This document shows, piece after piece, positions 3,159-64,000 of a stretch of DNA of 64,000 bases. Below the pieces are notes generated by a model that searched no databases, was not told the DNA's origin, and saw nothing but the letters and a program-made list of their open reading frames with translations. Every line of letters starts with the position of its first letter. Position 1 is the stretch's first letter. The translations under genes were made by a program, and so were the position numbers. Source of the stretch: Odontocerum albicorne (taxonomy: Eukaryota > Arthropoda > Insecta > Trichoptera > Odontoceridae); contig OX463865.1 of assembly GCA_949825065.1 (NCBI GenBank), positions 21,065,115-21,129,114 of the forward strand, written 5' to 3'.

Positions 3159-3995
3159 TAACGTATACTTATACATGTTTAAATCATTATTTTCTTACTA
3201 GTCCTATTATAACATTTTTCATTTTCTAAGTGACCTCTTTGAGAATGGTGTAAATATTAATTTTTCAGTAATTAAATAAAATATGTAAATTTTAATTTGG
3301 AAGGAGATCGTTCCAACCTCAGTGAAAAACCCCGTTTCTGAATTCTCGGAGCTGTTTGCTTTTTCTATTAAAAAAACTAAAATTTCGAAATTATAAATTT
3401 CCCTACTAATTTGGGCATAAACGTTCAGTGGAAAAGCGTCGCAACCGCGTGGCTCGCGAAAAAAATTAAATTATGTAAGTGAAAAATGTCTCTTTGAACA
3501 GATAAGACGAGTATATATTTCGACCCAACCCCGTTTTGTCGAGATTTATTAACTTGGTCGTTCCCCGAAAGCCGCCATTTCCTGGCTTTTTTTTCTTTTT
3601 TTTTTGTATCCCTTCCCTTTCTCTTTTTGAATGTCGCGCCAAAAATAATCGCTCGCCTATCGCGGTCAGTTTCTTCCGTTTCCTGTTTTGTTTTCTCTTT
3701 TTCCCTTTTTTCCCTCTTTGTCGGATGTATTTTTGTCGTGTTGGAAGAATTAACCAAAGGGAACATGTCACGGTCGGTCGACGGCGTTTTATCAGCTTGT
3801 TTTTTTTTCTCTCTCTTTATCAGTTAATATTGGGATTTGTTTGTATTTTTTTAGGGATTAGGGGATTTTCTGCGAATCGGAAATGCATTCGCCAGACATT
3901 GAAATACAACGAAAGTGTATTTATTACAGTCGAAATTTTGACAAAACAGATACGAGTATTAACTAGAATAAATATTTATACGCCCTTACCGTATA
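3159..3995. other. Pyrimidine-rich unassigned DNA
   Basis: Contains long T and CT tracts (3580-3725) that create hydrophobic-looking open frames. No conserved domain seen. One TACGAGTA octamer lies at 3951. Confidence 0.5.
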
Positions 3996-4110
3996 CAGTC
4001 AAACCTCAGGTCACGAACGCCTCTAGTCACGAACAAATCGGCTTACGAACTCAATTTCCGAACAAATTTTGACTCGACCTGCGTACAATGCCTCGGCTCA
4101 CGAATTAGTT
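3996..4110 (+). mobile_element. pogo/Tigger-like terminus
   Basis: Starts TA then CAGTCAAACCTC, the general form of pogo/Tigger terminal repeats, followed by repeated GTCACGAAC blocks. I found no matching right end in the next kilobase, so this is a partial or decayed copy. TCACGAAC-rich termini are known in pogo-like families; the assignment here is inference. Confidence 0.4.
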
Positions 4111-4504
4111 GTAACGGCGCATTACGTTATTACGCTTTAGTTGTACTCAGGTGCGCGCGTTGTGAACATTGTTTGTCGTTGAGTTCGTTGTTCTTGATAT
4201 ATTTTTTTTTGCTTATATACGAGTATATATACAATAGTATACAGTGTATTTAAATGTTGAAACAATGAACGGTAACGAATTATACAAACTGAGGGATTGT
4301 GTGATATATAAATTAAGAAAAGGCAAAATAAGTATATCGTTATATGAAAGTCTGGGTCTCTTGTTTCTCCGCTAATCCCAACAGGGAAACGGCCTGATTG
4401 CATGTTCGCTCGTAAATATTATATATTACTCGTATAGTAGTTATTAATAGTCAAGTGCTGGTTGTTGACATTGATTTTTTATTGTATTTCACTTTTGTGT
4501 AAAA

Positions 4505-4672
4505 CAGTACAACCTGTCGGGTGTATTGCTTCGTGACAATCTCTTCCAGTCAACTATTAAAAAAAGTGAAATCCAGACTGATTTTTTTTAAAAGGATACC
4601 AACAGTTTTCTAACCCTTAACCATCGGGTTGGAAGTCAAACTTCTTGCCAACTAGGCTACGGAGGTCGTCTT
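4505..4672 (-). repeat. tRNA-derived SINE (antisense)
   Basis: On the minus strand the head reads CCTCCGTAGCCTAGTTGGCA (box A-like), then a decayed box B region, then the CCAGTCTG body and the ACCCGACAGGTTGTACTGT tail. Same layout as 61432-61650. It carries many point changes, so it is old. Confidence 0.65.
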
Positions 4673-4754
4673 TTAATATTAGTGATAGGCAATCAATAGC
4701 ACTTTAAGTATTTATGATAAATAGCGTATTATGTTCTAGAGTTCAGTTCAGTTT

Positions 4755-4965
4755 CTGTTATGGGGACAAAATAAGTCTCTGTCCAGCGCGATCTACACTA
4801 GAAGATCGAAATTTTCTTTACTTTTTCTATGAGCGCGACGTTACGTAATGACGAGGAATGAAATACCCAAAGAGACTCCTTACAACACCTGAGTGGGAAA
4901 ATAATAGCAGTGATGACGGACTTAAGGTCCGACGTAAAGGGAGAAGGACAATTATTCGCAGCGCA
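4755..4965 (-). repeat. Dispersed repeat G, copy 2
   Basis: Opposite in orientation to 60-257 and 32425-32640. It begins GGGGACAAAATAAGTC and ends in GACTTAAGGTCCGACG, both shared with the other copies. Confidence 0.5.
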
Positions 4966-5228
4966 GATTTGTTTTTCTTTTAAAGTCCTGGAGTTCAAAC
5001 AGCCCAGCTAGTTGCTTGTACTTTGACAGAAAATTTCAAATGCAACAAAGCTATCCAATTTTGAAGATGGACCGATGTAAGGCTAAGAAGAGTTCCTTTC
5101 GGAAATTACAGACTCGATTTTATCCTATTACCACAGAATTGTGCGCTTTGTGGATTGATGGCCGCAAAAATTGCAACTGGGTGCAGGGACAATATTGAAG
5201 CTAATATAGTCTCATCAAAGCTCCCATT

Positions 5229-6027
5229 CTCTCTCCGTGGTTGCAGTCCTAAGACTGGTTTGCAGCAATTTCAACTCTTCTCCTCCATTCCCCCCTGTCC
5301 TGTGCGGCTCTTTTTAAATCTGTATATGTTGAGCAGCGCACGTCCACCAACAGGTCCTCCAGGTACTCTCGGCGTGGGCGTCCCCTAGAGTTTGTCCCCT
5401 CGGTCATACCCTCCATTATGGCATGCAAGAGGCCCTCTTGTCGTATTATATGACCGATCCATCTTGCACGCCTTTCGGACAGGATCCTGAGCAGGTGCCT
5501 TCCTCCTTCGATTCGTTGGAGAACCTCTTCATTTGTGATGCGGTCTCTCCAGGAAATTCCTAATAGTCTTCTATAGGACCACATCTCAAAAGCCTCTAGT
5601 CTTCGTCTATCTCTTTCGGATAGGCACCATGTCTCGCAGCCGTACATCAAGATACTCCATACATAGGTCTTGATGAGGAGTATTCTCAGTTTTAGGTCTA
5701 TATTATTTGATTCTATTATTTTCGACCTTTTATTAAATGCAAGTCTAGCCTGATGTATACGGCTGTCGACCTCGCTCTTGGACCGACCGTCCCATGTTAT
5801 TTTGCTCCCGAGGTAGACAAACTCCTTGGTGTTCTTTAGTGGTTTACCCGACATCACTATTCTCATCTGGTGCTGCGCTCGGCCTACAGTCAGCAGCTTT
5901 GTTTTGTCTTTATTTATCTTCATACTGTAGTTATTTTGAAGAATGCTTTCCATAGTTGTTAAGGCCTCTTGTAGTTCCTCTTCACTTTCAGCAACCATAG
6001 CAATATCGTCAGCGAACCTTATCATAT
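5229..6027 (-). mobile_element. LINE RT-A copy 1, 5'-truncated, with TSD
   Basis: The insertion is bounded by identical 11-bp AAGCTCCCATT at 5218-5228 and 6028-6038. It holds only the 3' part of a non-LTR retrotransposon, from the RT FADD motif to a short 3' end of GGAGAGAG. 5' truncation plus a variable TSD is the standard outcome of target-primed reverse transcription. The protein differs from the 39-kb copy at about two residues over 258, so both derive from a recently active family. Confidence 0.9.
5249..6025 (-). pseudogene. RT-A reverse transcriptase, C-terminal part
   Basis: 258 codons remain open, beginning at MIRFADDIAMVAESEEELQE, where FADD is the RT catalytic motif C. The thumb/C-terminal region follows, with YGCETW and FEMWSYRRLLGISWRD, typical of LINE ORF2 tails. 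The upstream codons MGAY come from flanking DNA, not the element. The frame has no internal stop, but endonuclease and most RT motifs are absent, so it cannot be autonomous. The exact LINE clade is unresolved. Confidence 0.85.
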
Positions 6028-6038
6028 AAGCTCCCATT

Positions 6039-7965
6039 GCCAGAGATAAATTGGGTAGTCCAATAGTTCGGGTATACCCACGGTGAGGCGTGGCGCGCCC
6101 TTATTCAAGGAAATAATTTAAATGTCTGTCTTTCCGCGGAGAAGGACGACCAACGATATTGCCAAGTCGACAACGGGGCCTTTATGTTCTGCAGAAAAAC
6201 ATAGATTTAGAAGTAACTTATGTATACGAGTATGTTCTAAGAATAATACTTGTTATCTAACCGGGTATGCCAGCTTGCTTGCCGTAAATGCTGACTATTA
6301 TATAATTAATTACAAACACATAAAACATCTAAAAGTCACAAGTCACGAATACACTGAGGACTAAATTTAATAAAAAAATTTAAATACTTCAGTTTAATTA
6401 TGTATGTAATATTATTAGCTAAACTAACACATGAAACAATTTGTATCGATATAAATTTACATTATTTACATATTTTCCATTTGTGTGTTTCATCAGTTAA
6501 TTGCTTGACGTATGAAGGAAGTCCGTTTTTAGAGGAATTAACTAATTTAAACACAGTTAACACGCAGATGTGATAGCAACATGAAGACTTCTTGGAATCT
6601 TGAAAAAAAGTAACATTTTGACCGCGATTGTCTATACAAGCAATGTTTTCTCTCAATTGGAAAACGTTGTCCGCTCCTAGTGTAAACCTTTTTTTTTTAG
6701 TTTAAGAAATATGATATACCATATAGTGCAAACATTTGCCAAAGGCTTTACCTTTATACAAATGTATACCTTAAAAACTAATCTAATTTATATATCATAT
6801 TATAACTATGAACTAACTCAATTTTAATTTCCTACGTGTCAATTTATTTTTTGACAATTTCTTAGAAATAGTCAACACCTACATACTATTTATAACTAGA
6901 TGATAATTCTTACAACTAATTATTTAGCAAGTACATGTCCACTCGTTCAGGTTACTTGCATTCCATCGTAAACCTTATTCTACTCGTATTTTCCTTTTTG
7001 ATACTTGTTTTCATTTTAATAATAAAAAAAATCACAGTAAAATCTTATAGGATAGTGGCAGCCAGTACCCAGTATATGCACTTGATCAGACTAGATAGTA
7101 TCATGGAAAGTAATGTCCGCGTTGGCTTTTCACACTCTGACGCGACCGAAAAAACACGATATGATTTTGCGCTCGAATTCCGCTTGACTTGTGGCGTCCT
7201 GTATCGATGCCTTAGATTTTTTCTTTATTTTTTTTACCTTTATACTTGCTGCGTATAATTAAGTTGAGCCTTTCCCGTTCCCGATCCATCTTGGGGTGCA
7301 ATTCTGCGGTAGTTTTCCTGTGGTACAGAAGCACTGAGACGATAAGGCCATCTACAGAGCTTGAGTTGCTCTGAAATGAGTCATCTCGTTCTCCTTATAT
7401 GTGTAAAGGTGTTTATTTTCATCTTCGGATATTCTGCTGATACTCGGTCGTCAGGACCTTGTTGGTTCACTAGCAGGAACACCGCGTGGCGGGGAGGTAG
7501 ACACAGTAAAGCTGCTGGGATAGTATTGCTGCCCCTTACACCTTCTTTAATATTAAAATTTGCAGCGAATAATACTTATTAAATTCTTTTTGATTCGCTG
7601 TCAGGGTAGAATTTTAGGCGATATCGTCGATTAAAAACCTATTTTTATACAAATTTTACCGAGAAAAATATCGCTTTTTCCCTGCTTTCCACCCCATTTA
7701 CTCTCTTATCACTTTGAATGTTTCATAATCAAATTCGCGGAGCGTGAAGCTTGTGTTGAATGCATTATTTTTTAAATATATAACACATACCCGTCGAATC
7801 TGCAGGAAAAAGCACGAACCGTTTTTTGGATTTAATTTTGCGCGAATTTTCGCTTTGTCGCTTTTAACCCATTCAAATCTGATTCGGATTTTTCGCAGTG
7901 CTCAAAGATATTTTTTATTTATTTATTTATTACAGTAATATCTAATATATTCATTTTCTAAAGAC
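6039..7965. other. Unassigned AT-rich DNA
   Basis: No repeat family or gene recognised in about 1.9 kb. Open frames at 6122-6364, 6935-7258 and 7361-7582 lack domain motifs. TACGAGTA or its complement occurs at 6225 and 6981. Confidence 0.5.
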
Positions 7966-8149: not shown

Positions 8150-8246
8150 TACTTACATATATATTTATTTTGGCACTTACATATATATGCCGAAGGCACT
8201 TACATATATATTTATTTTGTAAAAATATTACAAAATAAATATACGA
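8150..8246. repeat. Short tandem copies plus hairpin
   Basis: Three copies of GGCACTTACATATATAT-like sequence, then a hairpin ATATTTATTTTGTAA / TTACAAAATAAATAT with a 5-base loop, ending at a TACGAGTA octamer at 8242. Confidence 0.6.
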
Positions 8247-8340
8247 GTATGTACGAGTTTGTCTTTAGGTGTAGTGTAATGTTTATATACAATCGTAAAT
8301 TTTTTTATACAATCGAAAAGTCTTTCCAAAAAGGGTTGTT

Positions 8341-11289: not shown

Positions 11290-11650
11290 GAGAGTGTGGA
11301 TATTATCCCTGGCTTTATCCAAGTGTCTTCTTTCTGGGATGTTTGGTTACAGATCTTTGGAGAGTGGAAGATCTCTTCGATTAGCTGTTCACTTTTTTTT
11401 TGTTTGCTCAGGGGTAATTTAGTTAACCCATCCGTCCTGAACAGTCTCGGTTTGTATGTTCCGGATAATTATTTGAGACAACACTCCCATAGATTGTTCT
11501 ATCAACCTACGAGTATAAGTCGAACCGACCTGCCTTTGGAGATGCCGGTAGGTAGAGCAATTACACTGTTTAACCGTGTGTGTGTCCTCATATAGACGTG
11601 TTTCATGTGTCGCTCAGCTCCTTCAGAGAAAATCTCTTAAATTTAGTTGT
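11290..11650 (+). pseudogene. Jockey/CR1-like RT C-terminus
   Basis: Conceptual LGLYVPDNYLRQHSHRLFYQ, then ISRTDLPLEMPVGRAITLFN, with frame breaks. This resembles the last ~100 residues of Jockey/I/CR1 LINE proteins (a VP..RT..SP..R...L.N pattern). A TACGAGTA at 11508 adds two codons inside the usually tight P-x2-RT spacing. Confidence 0.55.
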
Positions 11651-12120: not shown

Positions 12121-12164
12121 ATACAAATGAACTGGTGATGATAGGAACTCTGGAAAGACGAATT

Positions 12165-12879: not shown

Positions 12880-13620
12880 ATGGATGTTCCCAATTTCAAA
12901 CTCACGGTAAAAGGAAAAGTAAATGCGAGATATGATGTGATGAGTAATGAAAAATAGAGCAAGTTATGGAATTCTCCTATTTGAGTAGTATTTTCTCAGA
13001 CAATGGAAGAGTCAAGAGGGATATCGAACGACGTGTAGCGATAAGAAAACGAATAAATGAATATACGAACCAGACAATATCAAAATCTGCTAAGCCGATA
13101 TTCCACAACAGTGTTTTGCTGCCAGCAACGTGGGAATGAAACTTGGATGTAGAAAGACACCAAAAGGAGCCGAATAAACGTTGTAGAAATGCGTGTTCTA
13201 AGAAGATTACATGGGGTGAAAATGTATGACATCATTTGGAATGAAGTGATTAGGGGTGAGCGTGCATTTGAGGCTGATGTTTTGCGTAAGACAAAGAAGG
13301 ATCACACTGTGATGGTTTGGGCATATCAAATAAATGAATGACGAAAAACTAACAATACAAATATATATAGTGCAAATGTGAGCGGAAAGCGTGATGGAGA
13401 AAGACCAATGAACGTATGGTTGAATCAAGTGTATGATATTTTGAAAGAAGGAAATGTACGAGTACTCCTACGATTTTTAATGTCAGAAAAATCGTAGGAG
13501 CTGTGTGAGGTGTATGGTTGTAGAAGAGGCGAAATATATGTGCCGCGATAGGAAAGTATGGCGCTTTCTTCTCTTTATGTTCCCAGACAGGGAGGTAGCG
13601 TGATGTTATTTATGTTTGTA
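12880..13620 (+). pseudogene. RT-D LINE remnant, long copy
   Basis: Recoverable blocks in order: IFSDNGRVKRDIERRVAIRK (after motif C), EMRVLRRLHGVKMYDIIWNE, an AMC..K-like stretch, SGKRDGERPMNVWLNQVYDI, then the CRDRKVW end and GCGTGATGTTATTTATG tail. It is broken by stops and frameshifts. At 13457 it carries a TACGAGTA followed by an inverted filler that sister copies lack. Confidence 0.7.
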
Positions 13621-13629
13621 GGCATTGGA

Positions 13630-13900
13630 AGGAGTTGCTTAGTGTTTTTTGGATCGTGTATAGTGATAGATTGTCTTTTTATCGTCTTCAGTCGCTCGAG
13701 GGTCGTAGACACATTGTTGATCTTGTTTATCTTTGCAAAGTCTTGAATGGTTTTGCGGATTCACTTGAAACTGTGGAACATACGAGTATTTTGAGTTTTC
13801 CCTCTCGCTCTCTAGCTACGAGTACATTTAGAAGTAACATCGACTTCCATAACCTATTAGTGAGAATGTACCGATAGTACAATGCTTGAACTGACTCGGA
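13630..13900 (+). pseudogene. Jockey/CR1-like RT C-terminus
   Basis: Conceptual SDRLSFYRLQSLEGRRHIVD, LVYLCKVLNGFADS and a SFPSRS block match the R--LDL--LYK-LNG-(I/F)DSPELL region of Jockey/CR1 proteins. One frame stays open for about 80 codons. TACGAGTA occurs twice (13781, 13817) inside the frame. Confidence 0.5.
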
Positions 13901-14660
13901 GTAGTTCAACGCAGAGTTTAGAACGATGGTGGGTGAATTGACTGAGGTATAATTGTACGAGTATATAGTTTGTAACATTTTTATTGACCTGACATGACAT
14001 GACAGAGCTGTGCATGAGAGGAACACTTCATTTGAATTTTAATCCTTAGTATTATTTAGAAATGAAATGTTTTGTGTGGAAATCTTGGTGTATTTCCCGT
14101 AAGTGTTTTTTACATGAAAATAAAATCCCTCTTTTTGAACTTTCTGCGTTTTGTAGGTGGTGTATCTATGTAGTCGTAAAGTAATCGCAATGCCTGAGTG
14201 AACGTGGTTGGGTTGGTCGTGATAAAATATTCAGAGAGCGTTTCCTGAACCGAATCAAAGCGAGAATGTAAATTTCTCTCATAGAATGATCGGGAACCGC
14301 ATAGATTTGTCTTGTGTTTGCCCGCGTTAGTCTGGACACGTGGTTCGCATTCCTGAACACAGACTCCCAAGAAATATAATTTTCAATGCACTTAAACATG
14401 GCAGAAGAAACCCCAGCGGACAGCCCAAGACACCGAAGAATGTTCTGCATGAGACGTAAACATTAATACTCAGCAAAACTGGGACAGCAGCAGATAGATC
14501 CAAGTGAGGTTGAACTGTTGCTAGTTATCAGGGATACAATGGAGGGAAAAGGCGCAGACAAGCTGCAAGTACTCGAGCTATTTGCCATATATGCAACATG
14601 AAATCCCTATCACAAATAGACTTCCATAGTCATCTCCGGCGGCAGCAACGTCAAGTACAG
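13901..14660. other. Unassigned DNA
   Basis: Nothing recognised except a TACGAGTA at 13956. Open frames at 14110-14450 show no motif. Confidence 0.4.
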
Positions 14661-18055: not shown

Positions 18056-18429
18056 ATAAATGCAGACATACTCGTACATGCAACCCCAGACTCTGCAGCG
18101 CAGAGACAAAATAAAATAAATGAAGTTCTGAATCCTAACTAAACACGGAAACAAACCATAAGACAATGTTTTGCTGAAAGTCATCAAATCACGCGAGCGG
18201 CTGCAGCTTTGATCTGTTGAACTATCTATTTGTGCTCATTTGTGAATTTCATGGATTTCACGTCAGCTGTCTTAATGCAATTTTAATTTTATATACAATA
18301 TCAACCGTGTGAGATGGCTGATACGAAAAAGTAAATAAACGATATGTTTATTGATAACGATAAAGTATGCAAGTATAACATAATATGTTATGTACTATAA
18401 TAACACACGAGATCTGTTGTTGGGAATGA
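18056..18429. other. Unassigned DNA
   Basis: One TACTCGTA at 18069; otherwise nothing recognised. Confidence 0.4.
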
Positions 18430-18680: not shown

Positions 18681-19184
18681 CTACATACAAAAATATATTG
18701 AAGAATTGATTCTTGCCTGGATGAATCAATTGATTGAGTTGTATTAATTTGCTTTGTTGTGTTGTTCGACTTGTACTATATTTTCCTATTGTACTCGTAT
18801 AACACTGCCTACTGCTGCTTTTTAAATATCCTGGTATCCCCACTGGTGACGCAGTTATGTTGTAGGGTGCTGTCCTGAGACATTGTTTTCTGGGGTCTTC
18901 AGGTTGGAACCGTAAGAGTAGGCAGGCATATTTATATCGGTCTATCGTGCGTTCTAACAATACTACCGAACTTTGAGTTCAAATAAGCTAGTATTACACA
19001 AATACATATTTATCAACGTACTTTTGGGTTTAATTTGAACCCTGGAACCTTTTTTTGAGAACCATCAGTTATATAATCCATAATGGCCATGTGAAAGCTT
19101 TGCGTCTGATTAAGTACTCTTTAACCTCTCAATAAATACTCAACCATAATTTTATCGTGTAACGCTTTCGTTCTGTATAGAAAC
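18681..19184. other. Unassigned DNA
   Basis: TACTCGTA at 18792; otherwise nothing recognised. Confidence 0.4.
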
Positions 19185-20520: not shown

Positions 20521-21139
20521 ACAATATAAAATAAGTTTTTTATTTTACTTATTTTTTCCTTTTACTAAAATAAGATTTCCTTTCCTATGTACCAGGTCTA
20601 CACAACATACGGTCCGTGGGCTGCATGCATAGAATGTACAAGAAATGAATATAAATATTTATTTCATTTTTAAAATAATCAATTATTTTTAAAATAAATA
20701 TTTTTCTCCACAAGTATGAATATTAATAAAAGTTAGAAACGCTCGTGTTTGAGTGACTATCATTTGGAAGACGTATTAACAACGGCTACTTCTAATATGT
20801 CTCCCGAATATGGCAAACTTGTTGCTGAAAAACGATGTAATGTCTCATTAAATTCACAATCCCTTTAAGTTACATGTTTCTAGTATTTAATTTTTTATTA
20901 TATTTTCACAATAATTATTTTATTTATTATAAAAATTTGTAAATTTTGTTGTTATAATTACGAGTACAATTAATAATATCGTAATAAAATAATAGTGTGA
21001 TAAACAAAATATTCTCTATTTTTTCCTATCCTGTTTTCTTGCGGCCCGCAGCACCTTTCCTTAAAGTAATATGGCCCTCATCCCATTTAGAGTTGTGCAG
21101 GCCTACTATAGACAAACCCTTTCGCTCTCTTAGAACACC
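20521..21139. other. Unassigned AT-rich DNA
   Basis: TACGAGTA at 20959; nothing else recognised. Confidence 0.4.
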
Positions 21140-21407: not shown

Positions 21408-21999
21408 CGCAATAGTCTACTCCAGAGGTTGTAAACCCGGAAGTTTCCTTATTTGGGTTCTGAGACAACGTTGTCTCCCGACTGCGCCAGTCAATACACT
21501 AATTAGGTTACATCGAAGGGGAACCATACGGAAAATATTTGTACATTAACTTTTGCGTATAAACAACACCCTTTAAACAATATACTCGTACATATTATGT
21601 ACAGGTAAAATATTTCGTTCGACAGGACACAACTACTGATGTACGAGTATGTTGTCTGTATACAGCGGGGGCACATATCCGTTGTTAGCCTGATTAGCAT
21701 CCCCGTGGGAAATTCGATGGTTTACATTTTTCCCGGTGGCGCTAAACTTTAAGGGCGCGTCAGATACTAACAACTTGCCGCGATCGCCCCCCTTCTCTCA
21801 CTTTTGAACTCTCCGTGTCCCTCGTGAACTGTCAAACCCCCTCACAATAATCCGCATTATCTCCGTGTCAATTTTATAGAACCCGATTCGAAACATAATA
21901 TTTGTATTGTATTATACAACACTTTCGATGTATTCACTGCAATCTGACAGGCTTATTGGCAAAATATTCCATCCAACGTAATATGTTAAACAAGCCTTA
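21408..21999. other. Unassigned DNA
   Basis: Two octamers (21583, 21642) within 60 bp; no gene or repeat family recognised. Confidence 0.4.
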
Positions 22000-25079: not shown

Positions 25080-26640
25080 ACACCGACATACCATCACACG
25101 ATTTCCGTGCTGGGGTGGGCAGATAAGATAAAGCGCTAGAGTTCGCTATCTCGAAACGCATCCTTAGCTTCTTTTACATCCATACAACATCTATAATTTC
25201 TCTGACTTTCTGCGTTTCCTTGTTTCAGAACATTATTCACTTAATCCAACTACTTTCTTTTGTCTTCCTCTTATACGCCTTCCACTCACATTTGCATTAT
25301 ACACATGTTTTGTTAGGCTTTATTCAATCACATTTGCACTATATATTTGTTTTGTTAGTCTTCATTTATTCGTCACACATGCCCAAACTCTCTACGCGTG
25401 CTATTCTTCATCATCTTACTAAACACACCAGCCTTCAGTTAATTCTTCTTCTCAGTGTCATGTCAGGTCCCCCCAACGTTGAATATTACTTGAGAGTAGA
25501 TATCTTTGTCCCCGGCAGCCCGAAAAAGATTCTCAACGCCCCTTATGCCAGTCCAATCACGTATATTGCGGAGCCAGGAGATTTGCCTCCTGCCAACACT
25601 TCTTCGGCCTTCTATTTTGCCTTGGATGATCGGGTGCAGTAATTTGTACTTTGGTCCTCTAAGTACATGACCCAAGTAGGACACCTGTCGGATTTTTAAT
25701 ATTAGTCAGCAACTCTCTATCGACTTTGGCTCTTTGAAGAACCCTTGTGTTGCTGACCATATCCGTTCAGGGTATCCATACCATTCTCCGGTGCATCCAC
25801 ATTTCGAATGCTTCCAGTCGATTCATACTACTTACTTTGAGGGTCCATGATTCTACTCCATGCAATAACACTGACCAAACGTAGCATTTGACTAACCGTT
25901 GTCGAAGTTTCAAGTTTAGATTATCATCGCAGAATACGCTTCTCATTTTATTAAAAGCCGCACGAGATGATTCAATTCTGCACTTGACTTCGGTTTCTGT
26001 GTTGAGGTCTTCCACTAGGATACTTCCGAGGTATTTAAACTTTTTCACTCTCTCTATATCAGCACCGTTCAATGTAAGACGTGCTCCTGCGTGATCCTGC
26101 CGGCCAAACACCATGAATTTAGTTTTACTCGCGTTCACGTTCAGCTCCAGCCTCACACCGGCTTCATTAATTCTATCTATAAGCGTTTGAAGGTCGTCAA
26201 TACTGTCTTCCAGAACAACCGTATCATCTGCGTACCTGATGTTGTTGACGCATACACCATACATACTTCAGTTCATATACATCCCTAATCACTTCATTCC
26301 GTATCCTGTCATACATAGTCACCCCGTGTATTCTTCTCAGTGCACGCATTTCTGCACCATATATTTGACTCTGTCTGTTTCACGTCTACGTTTTACTCGT
26401 ATGTATCAAAGTTGACACCAAAATACTATTATGGACTATCATCTTTGCAGATTTTTATACTGTACGATTTAAGTATACATGTGTTATACCTAGTACCCCA
26501 TTGATTTTTTCCTTTCGCTACTTGCCGTTTGATATATTTCTTAATTCTTTTATCATCTGAGAAAATGATACCCACAAAACAGAAGTGTTCAATTGCTCCA
26601 ATCTTATAATTCTTCACCCACATGCCGCGTTTATTAAAAT
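25080..26640 (-). pseudogene. RT-D LINE remnant, split by an RT-B insertion
   Basis: Antisense RT-D occupies 25080-25440 and 26266-26640. The right part reads FCFVGIIFSDDKRIKKYIKR, then EMRALRRIHGVTMYDRIRNE; the left part holds the GRPR-like end and terminal CATACCATCACACG. The two halves join cleanly when 25441-26265 and one TSD copy are ignored, and the join matches the uninterrupted copy at 41935-42560. Confidence 0.8.
25441..26265 (-). mobile_element. LINE RT-B copy 1 with 8-bp TSD
   Basis: 5'-truncated non-LTR insertion bounded by CTTCAGTT at 25433-25440 and 26266-26273. The frame starts just before IRYADDTVVLEDS (RT motif C, YADD), runs through VLLHGVESWTLKVSSMNRLE and HRRM, then meets a TGA where the 59-kb copy has CGG. 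One extra A near 25690 shifts the frame before YLGHVLRG, and it ends in NVGG(T) with a GACCTGACATGACACTGAG 3' end. Confidence 0.85.
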
Positions 26641-27189
26641 ACGAGTAAGTTGCTTGGAAATAAAACAAAATGCAAATAGGCTTATTTCATATCTATTTTG
26701 TCGTACTTTTTACCTTGTTCTTTCTTCAAAGCCATCTCTGATGAAGAGCCCTATCGATTTCCACTCCAAATTCTCATTTTCCTCTCGAAGGACATAATGA
26801 ATTTCCTCAGGCTGCGCGAGGAGCTCACCCCGGGCGTGCTACTCTCACTTATGTCGATATATTTTAATAACCTACTCGCTCTTAATTAAAATACCTTGCC
26901 TCATTCATCGCTCACATCGGATTTATCTCTAATTACTGCCCCACACCCCCTCTTCATCTTACTTTTCTGTTCTCTCTCTCTTTTGCTTTCATTACACTGG
27001 TATCCAATTTCGGTTTGAACGGATTTCTTTATCGCGAATTCAATATGTCGCAAACGCAGCTGGAACAAGTATATTTTATTTGTTTTTTATTTTTATTTTC
27101 TATACTGGTTTAACCCAGTTACACCAAATAACAAGTAAAAAAATAATGATTTAAAGTCTTAATATAACATAATGACAACATAAACAAGT
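26641..27189. other. Unassigned DNA
   Basis: A short duplicated block (AGTCTTAATATAACATAATG) lies near 27153 and 27189. Otherwise nothing recognised. Confidence 0.4.
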
Positions 27190-38429: not shown

Positions 38430-38608
38430 TTTTATTAGTTTTTCACCTTTGAGATAATTGTGAATGTTATGTACGTGGGGAAATAATGAAAAACAAGACA
38501 AGCAACAGCAAAAATACAGGTAATTTAATGGGGACATTCAATTATACTCGTATCTGGGTTTATTGCCTTTCATTTGTCGTGTCCCCAGTATACTAGGCTT
38601 TTGCCTGC
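38430..38608 (+). repeat. Dispersed repeat K, copy 2
   Basis: ATCTGGGTTTATTGCCTTTC and GTGTCCCCAGTATACTAGGC match copies 1 and 3. A TACTCGTA at 38545 replaces the short TATGG of the others. Confidence 0.5.
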
Positions 38609-38937: not shown

Positions 38938-39933
38938 TACAGAGATAGACGTATAATCCAGGCGCTATACAAGAATGAGGCCGCTATAATCAGATGTGAC
39001 GAGGACACAAAGGAAGCCAATATAAGACAAGGGGTAAGGCAGGGATGCTCTCTGTCACCTGTTCTTTTTAACGCCTATATACAGAGCGCGATTGACGACT
39101 TGAGAGAGAGAATGAGTCACAGAGAAGGTGTAAAGATACACGGGCAAAAGGTGGATATGATAAGGTTCGCTGACGATATTGCTATGGTTGCTGAAAGTGA
39201 AGAGGAACTACAAGAGGCCTTAACAACTATGGAAAGCATTCTTCAAAATAACTACAGTATGAAGATAAATAAAGACAAAACAAAGCTGCTGACTGTAGGC
39301 CGAGCGCAACACCAGATGAGAATAGTGATGTCGGGTAAACCACTAAAGAACACCGAGGAGTTTGTCTACCTCGGGAGCAAAATAACATGGGACGGTCGGT
39401 TCAAGAGCGAGGTCGACAGCCGTATACATCAGGCTAGACTTGCATTTAATAAAAGGTCGAAAATAATAGAATCAAATAATATAGACCTAAAACTGAGAAT
39501 ACTCCTCATCAAGACCTATGTATGGAGTATCTTGATGTACGGCTGCGAGACATGGTGCCTATCCGAAAGAGATAGACGAAGACTAGAGGCTTTTGAGATG
39601 TGGTCCTATAGAAGACTATTAGGAATTTCCTGGAGAGACCGCATCACAAATGAAGAGGTTCTCCAACGAATCGAAGGAGGAAGGCACCTGCTCAGGATCC
39701 TGTCCGAAAGGCGTGCAAGATGGATCGGTCATATAATACGACAAGAGGGCCTCTTGCATGCCATAATGGAGGGTATGACCGAGGGGACAAACTCTAGGGG
39801 ACGCCCACGCCGAGAGTACCTGGAGGACCTGTTGGTGGACGTGCGCTGCTCAACATATACAGATTTAAAAAGAGCCGCACAGGACAGGGGGGAATGGAGG
39901 AGAAGAGTTGAAATTGCTGCAAACCAGTCTTAG
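38938..39933 (+). CDS. RT-A reverse transcriptase, partial ORF
   Basis: About 331 codons read without a stop from 38938 (no start codon; the element is truncated) to TAG. Order: DRRIIQALYKNEAAIIRCDE, then RQGVRQGCSLSPVLFNAYI (RT motif 4/B, the QG-SPLLF signature), then IRFADDIAMV (motif C, catalytic DD), the KLL/YLGSKI segment, YGCETW, FEMWSYRRLLGISWRD and ARWIGHIIRQ. Upstream RT motifs and the endonuclease are lost. Against the 5.2-kb copy I see two differences (E for K, F for S). Open and nearly unmutated, so of recent origin, but without the 5' half or a promoter I do not expect function. Confidence 0.85.
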   Translation, partial: YRDRRIIQALYKNEAAIIRCDEDTKEANIRQGVRQGCSLSPVLFNAYIQSAIDDLRERMSHREGVKIHGQKVDMIRFADDIAMVAESEEELQEALTTMESILQNNYSMKINKDKTKLLTVGRAQHQMRIVMSGKPLKNTEEFVYLGSKITWDGRFKSEVDSRIHQARLAFNKRSKIIESNNIDLKLRILLIKTYVWSILMYGCETWCLSERDRRRLEAFEMWSYRRLLGISWRDRITNEEVLQRIEGGRHLLRILSERRARWIGHIIRQEGLLHAIMEGMTEGTNSRGRPRREYLEDLLVDVRCSTYTDLKRAAQDRGEWRRRVEIAANQS

Positions 39934-39952
39934 GACTGCAACCATGGAGAGA
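38938..39952 (+). mobile_element. LINE RT-A copy 2, 5'-truncated
   Basis: Longer sister of 5229-6027 in opposite orientation. The 3' ends agree (GGACTGCAACCAYGGAGAG). The flanks are AT-rich (AATAATTATT on both sides), so a TSD is suggested but not certain. Confidence 0.85.
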
Positions 39953-42560: not shown

Positions 42561-43609
42561 ACTTTTTTAACTTTGTCTTATATTTCATTAGTTTGGACTT
42601 TATACAATAGTATGTGTGTTTGTATGTATGATAATACTTGAATTCAGCGCATCTGTATGGGTAATATTAATTAACTTTAGTGCTTTCAAATAACCGCCTT
42701 ATTCGATTTACCGGTTTTCAATTATTTATAAATCGAAGAAACCCGTTTTAACCGTTTGTTAAATATGTGTGTATTTTTAATGCGGAAATACTCACTTTTT
42801 TTCGGTATATCTTATCATAATAAGTTTTAAGAATGTTTGCAAACATTACCAATTCATATAAAATTAAAACATGACTACTTTGTTTTATTGCACATTATTT
42901 GTTACAAATCACAATGCGTTTCAATACTCGCTGTGTCACCATCAAGTGAGTTGTCAATAGCCAATTTTTTGACATTTTGAAATTATCTTTATAATGAATT
43001 TATTTATGATTAGATTTTTTTTCTGACACGATATTCATAAAAAAATAATACGTATGAAATAATACGCTACACCAAAGTACAGCAAAAATAGGTGGTTGGA
43101 TAAAAAGATTTTTTTCTTTGAAACTGGTTAATTAAATAATCTAATCCGTTTTCAGTAATTTAGAAATTGTATAAATTACCGGTTTGGAAACCCTTAGCAT
43201 TCCCTTGTATTTTTAACGGTCAACCCGTTTAAACGCAAATAAAAGTTACCTTACTTAAAGTAATATATTCATGTTTTCTAATCCTGAAGATAAAAATTCC
43301 TTCGAGAGCGGGAGTATCGACAACAATGAGACTTAGAAACCGAAAGGAATAGGACACACTCCAGTGGATGGTCGTTATGGAGGAGGATCCTCGACTCGGG
43401 GTTGAGGGGATGGAAGAGTGCGCCACTTGGCCACAGAAGGCGGGTGAGGGGCGGTCCCGTTCTCGGGTAAAGGCACGGAGCTTCTGGCGAACGAACAATT
43501 GCAGGACGAGTGCGGCAATTGTCGGGCTTTGCGTTTTAAGAGGCGAGAATAAAGGATGAAGGTGTCAAGGCACAAAGGTACGAGTACATTTGAAAGAGAA
43601 GAAATGTTC
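42561..43609. other. Unassigned DNA
   Basis: 43330-43560 is moderately GC-rich with open frames on both strands, but no motif. TACGAGTA at 43579. Confidence 0.4.
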
Positions 43610-43740: not shown

Positions 43741-44937
43741 CGAGGGCTGCTACTTATGTTTTTAGATATGGCAACACCAGTGTAGATACGTCAAATCTGA
43801 CATCAGCATCGTAAAGTTTGACGTTTTTAATGGTATACGTGCTCAGTTTTGTTATACGACTGCTATTTGTGTTGTTTACAATGACTTAATTAAATCGTGA
43901 ACATTTTCGTGCGATGATTTTTTATGATTTTCGACGTGGACTAACTCTACAACAGTGTGCCGATCAACTCGCTTCGACTTTTGGTGATGAAGCACCATCC
44001 CGGGCCACTGTGTTTCGCTGGTTTTCCGAATTCAATCGTAGTCGTAGTTCGCTCCAGGACGAATTTCGTGAAGGTCGTTCAAAATCGGTTGTGCCAGAAA
44101 ACATCGATGCTGTGCGTGAACTGATATTGCAAGATCGTCGTGTGACTTATCGTGAGATTGAGTCATGTTTGGGCATTAGTTCCACTCGCATACATTGAAT
44201 ATTGCATGAACGTTTGGCCGTCAAAACGATTAGTTTGCGTTGGATACCGCATAATTTGACAATCGCTCAAAATAAGGCTCGTGTCGATTGGTCCAAATAA
44301 ATGTTGAAAAAATTCGATCGCGGTGCTTCAAAAGACGTCTTTAAGATTGTGACAGCCGACGAATCATGGATCTATACATACTATATGAGTCAGAAACAGC
44401 AGTCGACTGTATGGGTCTTTAAAGACGAACCAAATCCAACAAAAGTTGTTCGCGCACGAAGCACTTGGAACGTCGTACGGTCAATTCTGAATGGTACACC
44501 ACCATTTGTTTGCCAGAAGTGTTCGGAGAAATGAGGAAAACAAACCGCCGAAGACGGATCATTCTCCACCACGACAATGCGAGCTCTCACACATCGGCTC
44601 AAACAAGTGATTTTTTGATCACTCAAAACGTCGAATTGACGGGTCATCCGCCGTACAGCTCTGATTTGGCACCCAATGACTTCTTTTTATTCCCGAATAT
44701 CAAAAATAAATTGTGGGGTCAACGTTTTTCGACGCCTGAAGAAGCGGTTGATGCGTTCAAAACGCATGTTTTGAAGTTACCTCATTCGGAGGGGAAAAAG
44801 TGCTACGAAAATTGGTTCAAACGCATGCAAAAGTGTATTGATCTTCATGGAGAGTATTTTGAAAAACAATAAAGCCATTTTCGATGATAAATATTTGTTT
44901 TTATTTGTCTGTCTCAAAACTTAAATAGCAACCCTCG
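43741..44937 (+). mobile_element. mariner element 1, 1,197 bp
   Basis: Inverted termini CGAGGGCTGCTACTTATG and the complement of CGAGGGTTGCTATTTAAG. The right flank is TA; the left flank is TT, a decayed TA. Slightly shorter than a standard ~1.28-kb mariner because of an internal deletion. Confidence 0.92.
43881..44872 (+). pseudogene. mariner transposase (DD34D), broken
   Basis: Start ATG at 43881. Breaks: TAA at codon 3 (43887), TGA at 44199, TAA near 44298, and an internal deletion of about 20 codons that shifts the frame near 44465. Order: HTH region (FYDFRRGLTLQQCADQLAS, TVFRWFSEFNRSRSSLQDEF), RWIPH linker, first catalytic Asp in TADESWIY, second in HHDNASSHTS, third 34 residues later in APNDFFLF, ending GEYFEKQ. 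The triad is still readable, but at least four lesions make it a pseudogene. Mariner transposases cut and paste at TA sites. Confidence 0.9.
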
Positions 44938-46177: not shown

Positions 46178-46849
46178 CTATTGGAAACATTTCGTTTTCT
46201 GCCGGTAATAAATAAATACGAGTACGTTAAACTTTTTTAACGGAGGATAGTTTCGAAGTGTCCCGGTCATAATCACACGAAGTGCATTGAAATCTTTCGG
46301 AAGTTGCGACACGACAACCTCTGCAATGTATATTATTTATATCTATTGTTTATCTACTTAAAAACATATTCGTGACAAATCTGTTTCACATTTACGAGTA
46401 TGTTAAGTGTCAAATCATTCTGTTTTTAAATAATGATATATTTCCAATTTTTGCGTTAGCCTGAAAGGCAAGTTTATTTGTTTACTATTTATTAACTTGT
46501 TTGTGAAACAAACACAATGTTTGTTTTGTTATTTAAAATTTGTTTATACATTGTACCGTTTTCAAACTTTAAAATTGGAAATTATTCAGACTTGTTGACT
46601 TTTCGGCGGTTCCATGGTTTCGTTAAACAAATAAGTCGGTAGAGATCAGTAAAAGTTAACGAATAAGAAGATATTTTTGTTTTGAACGAACAGTTAATTT
46701 TATTTATCCCTTTGTGATGATGAATATAATCGAGTTCCCTTCACCTCTGTTTGCCGACTCCTTATGGGTTAGATGGATGTCTCGTTATGTGAAGTATTGT
46801 ATGTTAATTTTTTAACGACTGATTTGATGATTCTTTGATTTTGTGAAAG
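46178..46849. other. Unassigned AT-rich DNA
   Basis: TACGAGTA at 46217 and 46393; nothing else recognised. Confidence 0.4.
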
Positions 46850-51170: not shown

Positions 51171-51254
51171 CTCGGTAATATGTATCTACTCGTATGTTTC
51201 TACTTTTGACTTTAGCTGATCTAAGGAGATGGACCAGAAAGGTATAAAAAAGAC

Positions 51255-55945: not shown

Positions 55946-55988
55946 TAAGTATACTTGGCTAAATTTAGTAATATTTTTTTATATACGA

Positions 55989-56198
55989 GTATGATACATT
56001 CATACATTGAATTTAAATATACATACTCGTATTAATATAAAATTATTTAAACAATAACGTATGATACATTCATAAATTGAATTTAAATATACATACTCGT
56101 ATTAATATAAAATTATTTAAACAATAACGTATGATACATTCATACATTGAATTTAAATATACATACTCGTATTAATATAAAATTATTTAAACAATGAC
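55989..56198. repeat. 70-bp tandem array, 3 copies
   Basis: Unit starts GTATGATACATTCATACATT; copies start at 55989, 56059 and 56129 and are nearly identical. Each contains one TACTCGTA (56024, 56094, 56164). Confidence 0.92.
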
Positions 56199-56696
56199 TT
56201 TCTAATTACTTAGTTGTTTTTTTATTTTGAAATAGGCAATCAATCGACCCAGTTAGGATGTTTTGTGCCAGCAAATTAAAGACGTCATGAAATTATATGA
56301 GGCAATATAATAAAACCAATTAAAAAAATGACAATTTCAGATAATTCCGAGTTTCCACTGATTAAGCTTTAAAAATTAAACGATCGATCTTTAAAAAGAA
56401 AAGTTTCTCGAAGAAATAAGAAACGCAAATTTCATTGGACGCGGCAAATATCATACTCGTATATGGATTTTAGTAAATCAAATCTGTCTCGCAAAGGACA
56501 ACCGAAGAATAAAGGGTCTATAGTTTCATCATCCAAACCACACTCGCAACCGGGACTCTCCACGATACCCATTCTGTCAATGTGACTAGTCACGCAGTTG
56601 CCCTCCGCAAACGTTAAATGACAGACACTTCTTATTCATTTTTGTAATATTAAACCGTGGCTTCAAAGAGATAGATTGTTGGATTGATTTAACATA
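56199..56696. other. Unassigned DNA
   Basis: TACTCGTA at 56454; nothing else recognised. Confidence 0.4.
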
Positions 56697-57980
56697 CCAG
56701 GTTAGTCAAAAAGTTTTGAAAGCGGAAATTAAAATACATTTTTTTTGGGGGGAAATCCCTTTTATTGCTCAGTATAGTCTCCCATAAGATCAATACACTT
56801 AGTCCAACGATCTTCCAACTTTGTTGTCCCATCACGGAAGTGACTTTCTGGAAGGCCTGCAAAATACTCCTCTACGACGGCTATAACCTCTTCGTTTGAT
56901 GAAAAATACTTTCCACGAAGGAAGTTTTTGAGGTGTGAGAACAGCCAGAAGTCAGAGGGAGCTAAATCTGGCGAATAGGGTGGATGCTGCAACAATTCGT
57001 ACCCCAATTCACTGATTTTCGCGATGGTTTTTTGAGCAGGTGCATTGTCTTGATGAAAAATGATTTTTTTCTTCTGCAAACCGGGTCTTTTTTCACAATT
57101 TTTTTCATCCAACTGGTCCAAAAGGTCACAATAATAATCAAAGTTGATTGTCTTACCAGTTTGGAGATAATCTATCAATAAAATTCCTTTTGCATCCCAA
57201 AAAACTGACGCTTACACCTTCTTGGCCGATTTCTGGACACGAACTCGCTTAGGAGCCAAAGTGCCTGGTTCACACCACTCCTTAGCCTCTTGTTTTGATT
57301 CAGGATCATGGTGGTAGACCCAAGTCTCATCCGTGGTGATGAATCGACGCAGAAAATCCTTTTTATCCTTTCGAAATTGCTCCAAATGTTGCTCAGAAAG
57401 TCGCATTCGAACGTGTTTTTGTTGCATTGTTAGCAAATGCGGCACCCATTGTGCACACAGTTTTTTGAAACCCAAAACTTCAGCCAAAATATGCCATGTT
57501 GTTCCATGTGAGATGCCTATGATGTCAGCTATCACATCCACAGTCGATCGACGATCTTCCAAAACCATATCCTGTATTTTCGCTATGATTTCTGGTGTTG
57601 ATGCACTTTTTAGACGTCCTGAGCGTGGATCGTCTTCAACGCTTGTACGGCCACGCTTAAACTCCAAATCCCATCGGTGAACGGTTGGAAATGAAGGAGA
57701 AGACTCCTTTAATACTTTCACCATCTTTGCATGGATCTCAGTAGCCGATAAACCTTCCAAAACAAAGAATTTAATCACTGCACGATATTCGGATTTTTCC
57801 ATTGTTAAAAAATACACTGACACGTCAACTTCAAATGGTTTGTAAACAAAGAATGAATTAACAGATCGAAATGAAATTTTGAGTACGTTCTTATGAAAGA
57901 TGAAATATTAAAATGGCGTAGAAATTTTGGTTTTCTACTGCTCCATAGATGTCGCTTTTAAATTTTTTTGACTAACCTAG
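56697..57980 (-). mobile_element. mariner element 2, 1,284 bp, TA TSD
   Basis: Left end CCAGGTTAGTCAAAAAGTTT and right end the complement of CTAGGTTAGTCAAAAAAATT, with TA at 56695-56696 and 57981-57982. Length is canonical for mariner. Confidence 0.95.
56762..57823 (-). pseudogene. mariner transposase, one premature stop
   Basis: A single frame of about 353 codons; the likely start is the MEKSEYRAV Met at 57802, giving ~346 residues, normal for mariner. HTH: EGLSATEIHAKMVKVLKES and TVHRWDLEFKRGRTSVEDDP, followed by QWVPH. First Asp in TTDETWVYHHDP, second in HQDNAPAQK, third in LAPSDFWLF. The only nonsense change is TAA at 57212-57214 (before ASVFWDAKG). The second and third Asp are 31 residues apart, not 34, which suggests a 9-bp in-frame deletion between them. 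Both lesions should inactivate it. A different mariner lineage from element 1. Confidence 0.93.
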
Positions 57981-59825: not shown

Positions 59826-60534
59826 TAGGTCACGGAGCTTGTGTGATCAATACTCGTAAGAAGTTTGGTACTGGAAGACCGAGTTATTTTACTCATGTGT
59901 GGAAATTTTGAATTGACTCATCTGTGGAAGTGAAGAAAAATTTTGAAAAGCCGGTTGTTTGGAAGATATCGCTTCAAATCACTCAATTCTTATTCGGTAG
60001 GTAGAAATCTCCCGCTTCATCTTACTGAATTTTTTGGCTCTGAATTTTCCTTCGCTATATCAATTCAAGGATCACATTTTATTCTCTTCATATTATACTC
60101 GTATGTCTATGGTACACTACACTTTATATTTTTGATGTGTACTATTTAAGTGAATTTAATGGACTATATATTGGACTGGTGTCCGGTGGCGATCTTTAAC
60201 GAGTTCAACGAAAGGGCGTTGGGTGGATATTTGATCCTGCTCCTAAACAATTAATTAAATTCAATCAACGAAACGAGACTCGTTTGAGAAAAAAGCAAAT
60301 CTCTTTCGACAACAAAGATAAATTATAGGACAAATTTCAAGAAAAAAAAACATGCTTAAGATAAAATGTAATAACCAATCTCCCATTCAAGGGTTAAGAA
60401 TGATTTAATGGCGGGGAACGACCCTTTGCTACTCGACAACATTTATAGTTAAAATATCTACCGAACCAGATGTGAATTTACTCAATTGTTGCATTCTTAC
60501 GAATTAATGGTTACGTGTAACTGTCAATAGTAAT
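59826..60534. other. Unassigned DNA
   Basis: Octamers at 59851 and 60097; nothing else recognised. Confidence 0.4.
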
Positions 60535-60814: not shown

Positions 60815-60990
60815 AGGTATAGCGACGTTTAGAGAGCAGACTTTCCTTAAGGTTGCTCTATATCGGGATTCGAACCCACTATTATTGACATAATAAAATT
60901 ATTCCTAAAAAAATCAAGTTGATGGGAAAGATGGCAAGGTAGTGGCTGTCACCATATATTACGAACTTGTTCGCATTTACATATGTTAGC
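60815..60990 (+). repeat. Dispersed repeat L, copy 3
   Basis: GCGACGTTTAGAGAGCAGAC then CGGGATTCGAACCCACTATT. The minus strand of that block contains a perfect box B (GGTTCGAATCC), so L may be a second SINE family. Confidence 0.45.
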
Positions 60991-61650: not shown

Positions 61651-62021
61651 ACGAACTTGAATGAAAAACCTCGAACGCCTTAATAAAACATATTTGAAAT
61701 CTTAGTATTTATTTTAGAATTTTCATTTTACTTTTATAGTTAGATTTGATTTTTTTAAAATAACCGTTCAATAAATTTTATCTTTATTACCTTTTTTAAG
61801 TCTTAGTTTTTTTTTATTATTTATGATTTTCACTAAAAGGAAAAAACTTCAGTCTTCAAATAGGTTATTTATGAGTTGCTCTGAATTGAAAATCATTAAA
61901 ATCCCCATTACTCTTTCAGTTTAATTCCTTTAAGAAATAAAATCTTTCTGGCGTATTTATAATGGTTTCTAAGGCTTTCATATAACCAACCTTTTTTTCC
62001 GTTTACTTTAACGATTACCCT
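61651..62021. other. Unassigned AT-rich DNA
   Basis: Nothing recognised. Confidence 0.4.
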
Positions 62022-62100
62022 CCATAGTCGAGCGGTAGAAGACTTTCCTTCTAGCGCTTTCGGTTTCAAGTTTTGATTGTAACCAAAACATGACTTCTGT
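62022..62100 (+). repeat. SINE head
   Basis: TACCCTCCATAGTCGAGCGG (box A-like) and TTTCGGTTTCAAGTTTTGAT in place of box B. Confidence 0.45.
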
Positions 62101-62149
62101 AAAAAAAAACACCTTTTTGATCGTATTTTTGTATTACACTTTCAACCCG

Positions 62150-62340
62150 GCATTTATATATAACACATTAGTGACAGATTTTTTATCATGTACTAATCTC
62201 TTCTAACCAATCAGAAATATGTATTAACTACGCGCAAATTGTCCCAGAAAAAATAAATATCTTTACCAACGGGAGAATTGAACTCGCAACCCCCGATTTA
62301 TTAACAAGCGTCTTAACGACTAGGCTATGGAGCTCATCTA
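62150..62340 (-). repeat. SINE (antisense)
   Basis: CTCTTCTAACCAATCAGAAA body, CAACGGGAGAATTGAACTCG (box B side), GACTAGGCTATGGAGCTCAT (head). Confidence 0.6.
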
Positions 62341-62799
62341 TCAATATCAATTCTATCATTGCATCATACGATTTGAGATTTCTTAATTCAAATTGGATTT
62401 TTTTTTTATTTTGCAAAATTTCGTAATCAACTCGCACTTAAGGTGTCCGGAATAGCGTATCTTTATATACGAGTATATATTCGAGTTCCTTCAGTATATA
62501 CTCGACAAAGGGCTGTTTTCCATTGTAAACTAAGTAACCCTTAATATCAACAAAATTCTAATATATACTCTTTTATAGTATAGAATACATCTTTTGAGAA
62601 ATCGATTTGCTGATATCGCCGATATATTTTACCACAGTCTGTTGAGTTATAAAAGAAGGCTGACTTTAGAATTTATAAAGTGGTGAATTTGTACTCAACT
62701 TTTCTTTCTACATGAATATGAAGAGTGACACTCGGTGTGGTGAGGTGCGGGCGACCTGTCTTAAGGCCGTATCGTGTAATCGACAGTGTTAATTTTTTT
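62341..62799. other. Unassigned AT-rich DNA
   Basis: TACGAGTA at 62468 in a TATATA context; nothing else recognised. Confidence 0.4.
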
Positions 62800-63234
62800 T
62801 TAACACGTTGACTGCCGGCCTGAAAAGGGGGCTTGGGATATGCTGATTTTTTTTCATGCGAAGTCGCTTCTATGGTGTTCGTTTATGCTTTTCGTGAAAT
62901 GCTTTAGATTGTAAATATTCAGATATGTTGGAAAACGGGAAAATAAAAATTACGCGTTTGTGCGTGATCGGCACTGGGATTGAAATTTTCATTCCCAGTG
63001 CCAATTACGCACTTACGCGTAATGATTTATTTCGTACTAAAAACGTTTATTACAGTATAATTATAAAATGTTAAAATACAAAATTATACAATATCTTAAC
63101 AACAGAACGAATACTTAGTTATAAAATAAAATATTGTTTTTTTTTTCAAAAACTTTGTAAAACACAGAAAAAAATTAGAGTAAAGGTATGAAAATTGGTT
63201 TGTTGATTAATAAAATTAAAATAATAATTAAAAC

Positions 63235-64000
63235 TTATATATTAGTACTCGTATGATATTCTTCAAAGCAATCAAAACATAAAGCTGGTTTGTCGCAAAA
63301 TTCACGTTGCCAACTAGAGTCTTGACGCTTATTCATTTTTTTATAACACAAACGACATATTCTTCGCATGACTTTTACTTTGGCATTTTTTTCGGTTATT
63401 TTACTGATTTTGTGCCTTTTTTTAATATATTTATGTGTCATACTAGATCTCGAACTGATTTTATTAAAGGGATCTTCGCCCACTTCTTCTTCTCCCTGGC
63501 TCCATCCCAACTCACTGCCTGCGAAGACTGTCGGGGTCAGCTCTCCTCGTCCTCAGGTTGTATGCTCTTCTGTCCCGGACTACGTCCCCCAGGCCGTGCC
63601 TCTGCATCAGGTTATCTTTTTGCACCACCCACGAACTCTTTGGTCTTCCTCTGGTTGTTATTCGAGGAAGATCCATGGAGATTGCCTGGTTCACAATGTG
63701 ATCGGGTGCTCTGCGTCTAACGTGCCCATACCATCTCAATCTATCCGCCTCTCCTCCATCTTGCTGTTGATGTCTGTAACACCTAGGCTTCCACGAATGC
63801 GTGAGCTTTTCTGATCCGCTCACTTCATCTGAATAAAAGTGTAAGCATCTCATTATTAGTAAAAATCTATTCCTGCTCATTTGCTGCGCGAAGATGGGTA
63901 AAGAAAATACCCTGTCTGTTTTCCAGTAACCTTGGATTCAGCTGAGTTGAATAGTACCCATATGAAAGAGCAAACCCAAGAAGATTTTACATTCCGGTAT
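63235..64000 (-). pseudogene. piggyBac-like transposase, deleted and interrupted
   Basis: From 64000 downward: IFLGLLFHMGTIQLS, a stop, then IQGYWKTDRVF, PIFAQQMSRNRFLLIMRCLH, the conserved PIF--(I)MSRNRF block of piggyBac transposases. An RT-C insertion (63487-63816) follows, then EDPFNKIS. Most of the catalytic core is then missing and the frame continues into a C-terminal Cys-rich domain, CRLC-x16-C-x5-CFDC-x4-H, ending near 63235. So there is at least one stop, one LINE insertion and one large internal deletion. PiggyBac transposases excise precisely at TTAA. Confidence 0.82.
63487..63816 (-). mobile_element. LINE RT-C copy 2 inside piggyBac
   Basis: Flanked by CGCYCACTTC at 63477-63486 and 63817-63826 (10 bp, one mismatch). 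It encodes the RT tail: RLRWYGHVRRRAPDHIVNQA, TRGRPKSSWVVQKDNLMQRH and RTRRADPDSLRRQ then stop, with a frameshift before RLRW (the RIRGSLGVTDINSK part is in another frame). The 3' end GTTGGGATGGAGCCAGGGAG matches 23600-23630. Confidence 0.85.

Follow-up and report, generated by a model that had tools for sequence, protein, structure and literature searches.

The octamer TACGAGTA/TACTCGTA occurs 34 times in a 64-kb stretch of the genome of the caddisfly Odontocerum albicorne (the window; contig OX463865.1, positions 21,065,115–21,129,114), and its copies were analyzed here as putative excision footprints of a transposon. Seventeen copies lie in each orientation. Markov models of order 1 and order 2 predicted 1.57 and 1.87 copies, respectively, an excess of approximately 18- to 22-fold, and 100 shuffles that kept the dinucleotide composition gave a mean of 1.66 octamers and a maximum of 6. 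An earlier note on this DNA had listed 34 sites and put the over-representation at about tenfold; every site is present, with a single coordinate corrected from 60097 to 60096, and the actual excess is greater. The octamer ranks first among all TA-N4-TA words in the window, the second being TAAATATA with 32 copies versus 15.8 expected. Equal abundance of other TA-N4-TA words, which the earlier note had named as a result that would speak against footprints, was found neither in the window nor in the other stretches sampled. The 24 words that differ from the octamer by one mismatch summed to 36 in the window versus 45.6 expected.

The copies are not carried by a shared repeat. Comparison of 25-base flanks gave 30 distinct contexts for the 34 octamers, and none of the 34 falls inside the 6.5 kb occupied by selected mobile elements and arrays, where 3.3 were expected. 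Three octamers do belong together, as the earlier note had stated: those at 56024–56031, 56094–56101, and 56164–56171 (all on the − strand) occupy units 1, 2, and 3 of one 70-bp tandem array, and the latter two are duplicated copies.

Occurrence of the octamer across the assembly

The assembly comprises three large contigs of 63.5, 58.2, and 55.6 Mb plus small ones. For comparison, 27 stretches of 10 kb (270 kb) were taken from it, giving 334 kb together with the window; a 324-kb set consisted of the window and 26 of the 27 stretches, leaving out L274, which is a tandem array. The first 24 stretches contained 91 octamers versus 6.2 expected, and 23 of the 24 carried the word; the 27 stretches together contained 92. 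Across the 324-kb set, 126 octamers were found against an expectation of 8.4. Contexts were again diverse (87 distinct among 90 octamers in the fetched stretches). Expressed per 64 kb, the density was 34 in the window; stretches from the three large contigs gave 30.1, 18.3, and 21.9, and the three small-contig stretches (30 kb) held a single octamer, or 2.1 per 64 kb. An outside control of similar GC content, made up of at least 120 viral contig loci picked via a scrambled pattern, contained 23 octamers in 1,036,911 bases, or 1.4 per 64 kb. By rough extrapolation, the 177 Mb would hold some 45,000 scars (without the first 210 kb of contig C1) to 65,000.

Other repeated words were seen along the way. 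Four uncultured virus contigs (L085, L056, L034, and L035), found with a 14-base extended motif among the matches listed (at least 120 loci), are dense in TACGAGTA; their octamers are unidirectional within each locus, whereas both orientations occur in the caddisfly window. In 24 stretches of the assembly, TAAGGATA was raised (57 versus 12.2 expected), perhaps because it is repeat borne, and words that would fit a TTAGG-type telomere repeat were over-represented. L274, the first 10 kb of the small contig C6, is a tandem array with a period of approximately 726 bases, of which 14 units were seen, 12 with TACGAGCATACT and 2 with TACGAGCAAACT.

Core, flanks, and sister copies

The four-base core is exact in both orientations. 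In the 324-kb set, the three-base product TACGATA (52 versus 47.4 expected) and the two-base product TACGTA (63 versus 66.4) were at background, as was the mixed product TACTAGTA (3 versus 3.1); TACGAGGTA was absent (1.6 expected), and TACGCGTA was weakly raised (7 versus 2.8). When 12 distinct words, including the octamer, were counted in the window as minor repair products from partial ends, only the octamer and TAGTA (144 versus 109 expected) stood out. Because shorter and longer products of CGAG ends are at background, four bases appear to remain nearly always. An age bound derived from scar decay is loose and hinges on the background assumed.

To characterize the flanks, CGAGTA was taken out of each octamer (the collapse), and two of the tandem-array copies were dropped, leaving 32 window sites. 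Reading outward, these sites prefer T/C, A/G, and T, and the preferences fade past the fourth base, so that no element body is left at the sites. The collapsed flanks show a short symmetric preference, AYATATRT, which emerged separately from the window and from the other stretches. TRT half-sites were found at 22 of 64 octamer flanks versus 769 of 10788 flanks of window TAs, and the full AYATATRT at 4 of 32 octamers versus 21 of 5394 TAs; a leave-one-out target score separated the window octamers with P = 7e-12. The 27 stretches gave 52/184 versus 4184/50324 for half-sites and 11/92 versus 482/25162 for the full sequence. AYATATRT is the target consensus reported for Tc1 (PMC9635669), with the difference that the preference here is deduced from departed elements. 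A palindromic target, ATATATAT, is likewise described for the ZB transposon and is similar to that of Sleeping Beauty (PMC7913693). There was no asymmetry between left and right flanks relative to CGAG (P = 0.41), and orientation was balanced, at 17/17 in the window and 44/48 in the 27 stretches.

If the octamers are insertions, then related repeat copies (sisters) should include some that are shorter by six bases. From the 126 octamers in the 334 kb, 120 were far enough from the ends to be compared, and once very AT-rich flanks had been excluded, a sister spanned 21 of them; at five of these all sisters carried the word, which left 16 informative sites. The six-base collapse improved the fit to sisters at 10 of the 16, compared with 52 of 660 control TA-N4-TA sites, and at a delta of at least 2 the figures were 7/16 and 16/660 (Fisher P = 1.9e-7; Mann-Whitney P = 7e-7). 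Because one repeat could contribute many of these controls and most were A+T-rich, the comparison was repeated with a stricter control, words that contain at least two G/C. The result held: 10 of 16 octamer sites favored six-base removal versus 12 of 261 controls, or 9/15 versus 11/153 when no more than one site was kept in every 300 bases (Fisher P = 2.4e-6). The octamer was common to sisters in 10 of 74 pairs, whereas the stricter control words were shared in 2593 of 3776. In the clearest cases, the difference is exactly six bases. All four empty sisters of L256:491 are exactly six bases shorter by alignment, all three sisters of L258:5109 are six bases shorter in a MAFFT alignment, and two of the three at L260:5889 are shorter by exactly six and the third by ten. 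Empty sites reduced to TA, whose lack the earlier note named as counting against footprints, have counterparts among the six-base-shorter sisters such as those of L256:491 and L258:5109 (CA in the latter). Within the window alone, sister comparisons were mixed, and a gap-length scan revealed nothing past the known pairs.

Taken together, the excess, the target preference, and the six-base-shorter sisters support what the earlier note had suggested, and most of the octamers are very probably excision footprints of a transposon of the Tc1/mariner superfamily with CGAG ends. Members of this superfamily insert at TA and duplicate it. Insertion of this kind, with which the target preference agrees, would have been followed by an excision cut that leaves four end bases behind, as the uniform core suggests, and end joining would then have closed the gap to give TA-CGAG-TA or TA-CTCG-TA, which exceeds the empty site by six bases. 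Sealing in either orientation is supported by the balanced strand counts given above.

Several observations weigh against this interpretation. One-mismatch words were in mild excess in the 24 other stretches (180 versus 159.6 expected), outward position 5 deviates in the genome set (chi2 23.9), which is unexpected for Tc1 targets, and a left-right flank pairing test was not significant (best P approximately 0.05 of several). The sisters of L258:5109 carry CA rather than TA at the target. No allele still occupied by an element was seen at any footprint site, though none could be looked for. Six of the 16 informative sites do not favor a six-base insertion, five of them clearly (26394, 38545, and 13817 in the window, L261:6378, and L265:7411), and the sisters of L250:5626 are split. 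At 26394–26401 (−), the word is present in 0 of 14 sisters, the closest two of which align here with no gap; this octamer looks to have been made by point changes, not by excision, and is probably not a footprint. The octamer at 38545–38552 (−) is a doubtful footprint: the word is found in 0 of 7 sisters, and the four shown (the best 88% identical) are one base shorter. One sister each contradicts insertion at 13817–13824 (+; delta −3) and L261:6378. One sister of L265:7411 has TATGAGTA in place, and there the word looks to be shared by descent, with TATGAGTA as an inherited, decayed scar. Some favorable sites also depart from six bases, by the size of the gap at L253:7723 (ten) and at 13457–13464 (+; approximately 20), an octamer within an old repeat. 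Most sisters of the latter lack approximately 19–20 bases, which correspond to CGAGTA together with 14 bases that repeat nearby DNA in inverted orientation. The octamer at 28699–28706 (−) is ambiguous; it has a high target score, but its only local sister has TACGTA, a two-base difference. Finally, the octamer at 8242–8249 (+) lies in one arm of a hairpin, and against the other arm, which is missing CTCG, removal of four bases scores 22, of six bases 17, and of none 16.

The remaining octamers of the window are mostly putative footprints. On the + strand these are 3951–3958, 6225–6232, 11508–11515, 13956–13963, 20959–20966, 21642–21649, 26640–26647, 43579–43586, 46217–46224, and 46393–46400, together with 4218–4225 and 62468–62475, at both of which the collapse restores a TA run, and 13781–13788, where one sister favors insertion (delta +2). 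Those on the − strand are 4427–4434, 6981–6988, 18069–18076, 18792–18799, 21583–21590, 56454–56461, 59851–59858, 60096–60103 (the site with the corrected coordinate), and 63246–63253, as well as 27644–27651, which sits just beyond a repeat boundary. The octamer at 51187–51194 (−) is located at a repeat boundary and gave an ambiguous sister comparison, and that at 55984–55991 (+) is located at the edge of a tandem array.

Source elements and competing explanations

Minos, a Tc1/mariner element, has CGAG termini, and its excision scar is TA-CGAG-TA. The earlier note had proposed a Minos-like source of which no copy remains in the window; the source stays hypothetical, and the absence of a copy fits an intact source only. 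The four-base scar is the one known for Minos; no Minos-like element was noticed in the 334 kb, which were not searched systematically for transposases, and one Minos terminus had no match within three mismatches in the window. There is no intact source in the window, but a broken mariner with CGAGGG...CCCTCG ends, a relative of a possible source, lies at 43741–44937 (+), flanked by TA on the right and TT on the left, and it has a relative in L263. A scan for CGAG terminal repeats within the window returned weak pairs only and was blind to this element because of its TT left flank.

An intact element with CGAG ends was found elsewhere in the assembly. Positions 1820–3152 of L257 (C1 near 40,001,820) hold a CGAG-ended mariner with TA on both sides and 27 of 30 matching terminal bases. 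It contains an intact reading frame of 354 amino acids with DD34D spacing and mariner Pfam domains (Transposase_1), and judged from its sequence it is possibly still active. The closest database protein to its transposase is 94% identical, and L254 carries a copy of the element that is approximately 97% identical and internally deleted. A CGAGGG end (one end checked) was also present in L269, adjoining DNA with 66% identity to the window's other mariner. The best mariner database match was to Lasius niger (84%). A scan of the 334 kb for terminal repeats bounding elements of 60–6000 bases gave one clear element, a mariner.

The earlier note argued that mariner footprints are three bases long, which agrees with the data to the extent that TACGATA shows no enrichment; a four-base scar thus still calls for a Minos-type element or else for a mariner that cuts in an unusual way. 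A Minos-like Tc1 element with a four-base footprint, now rare or lost, is a plausible source, although on balance we lean slightly away from it. It would account for both the four retained bases and the lack of a three-base product, and 6 bp have been reported to stay behind when Minos excises (PMC10992017); set against this are the failure to notice such an element or match its terminus and the fact that the CGAG-ended elements seen in this genome are mariners. For a source among the CGAG-ended mariners (CGAGGC..., CGAGGGTTGCTA..., perhaps CGAGGGTAGTCC...), which would have to cleave four bases in from the end, the case is evenly balanced. The L257 element with its TA flanks and intact transposase, its copy in L254, the CGAGGG-ended mariner of the window with its relative in L263, and the CGAGGG end in L269 argue for it, and the ITRs (inverted terminal repeats) of human Hsmar2 also carry CGAGGG (PMC3770610). 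The cut it demands is the difficulty, because published mariner cuts fall two or three bases inside the end (PMC2642840) and the three-base word is at background; scars across the Tc1/mariner group are described as spanning 2–4 bases (PMC7913693). A bolder reading, which we consider slightly less likely than not, is that the CGAG-ended mariners of this genome, unlike those described so far, cleave four bases in from the end and have left tens of thousands of fixed scars, tens for every surviving copy, such that the scar word would act as an excision odometer on the scale of the genome. The ratio of scars to survivors is very rough, since the L257 family was counted at two copies in the 334 kb.

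The octamer might instead be no scar at all. A functional motif under selection, such as a protein-binding site with the near-palindrome ATAC-GA-GTAT, would explain an exact word with symmetric flanks, and the octamers at 26394 and 38545, with no six-base insertion relative to their sisters, fit it. We regard it as unlikely, given that other spacers of TACNNGTA have only 0–5 copies each in the window, that near-matches are at background there and mildly raised elsewhere, and that the six-base gaps in sisters are far above controls and the flanks are those of a transposon target. Very unlikely, in our judgment, is somatic or programmed excision, whereby elements are kept in the germ line and the assembled tissue displays only their scars. 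The window's scars, uniform and little decayed, would suit it, yet the scar was duplicated along with the array at 56024, 56094, and 56164 and is shared by the L265 repeats, in one of them in decayed form, which shows that scars are passed on through the germ line. A few sites do sit in tandem arrays, as they would if the word were carried by a repeat family or produced by base composition, but the 30 contexts for 34 sites in the window, the 87 among 90 in the other stretches, and shuffles that reach 6 at most make this explanation practically negligible, and a repeat-borne word was rejected on these counts. For the excision footprints that we favor, the step from inserted bases to transposon excision, and to a particular transposon, is what we infer.

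Neighboring elements, known systems, and significance

A second type of scar may be recorded in the same DNA. TACCATA, the expected three-base scar of CCAGG-ended mariners, was counted 88 times versus 58.2 expected in the 324-kb set, and the excess is possibly a second, weaker scar record; a CCAGG-ended mariner lies in the window at 56697–57980. At 13457–13510, the CGAG scar precedes a 14-base segment that repeats the immediately downstream DNA in inverted form, a pattern resembling templated break repair. The window also contains a 43-bp unit repeated 20 times in tandem at 2034–2898 (100% match) and two inverted reverse-transcriptase segments, at 5230–6027 and 39155–39952, that are 99% alike and 33 kb apart. 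The best named match for the reverse transcriptase was from Diaphorina citri (56%), which, like the Lasius niger match of the mariner, points to an arthropod host; no relatives of the reverse transcriptase were found in viral and genome contigs. A search of viral contigs with a repeat motif of the window gave seven loci, none of which was similar to the window by blastn.

The putative footprints resemble several systems already described. With Minos they share the six extra bases after excision and the letters TA-CGAG-TA, and they differ in being natural scars that number, by extrapolation, in the tens of thousands. Sleeping Beauty and mariner are alike in leaving terminal bases between two TAs, the footprint listed for Sleeping Beauty being C(A/T)GTA (PMC3878927), but three bases remain there and four here. 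Footprints of Triticeae Stowaway elements were likewise described from natural empty sites (PMC1925063), at single loci and with variable products, in contrast to the uniform genome-wide word found here. Footprints are known as such; a uniform natural scar record that is visible as an excess of one word appears to be new, as far as the literature searched goes. Among the titles and abstract openings listed by searches of one open-access library, none treated footprints as a genome-wide word excess, and a whole-word search of the library for the octamer returned no paper with that word.

How often cut-and-paste transposons excise over their lifetime is usually guessed from surviving copies. Were a scar recognizable by its word alone, departures could be counted, dated through the decay of the scars, and compared among species, and the target preference could be recovered from elements that have vanished. 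It would also raise a biochemical question: which transposase leaves four bases behind, and why is the end joining that follows so uniform?

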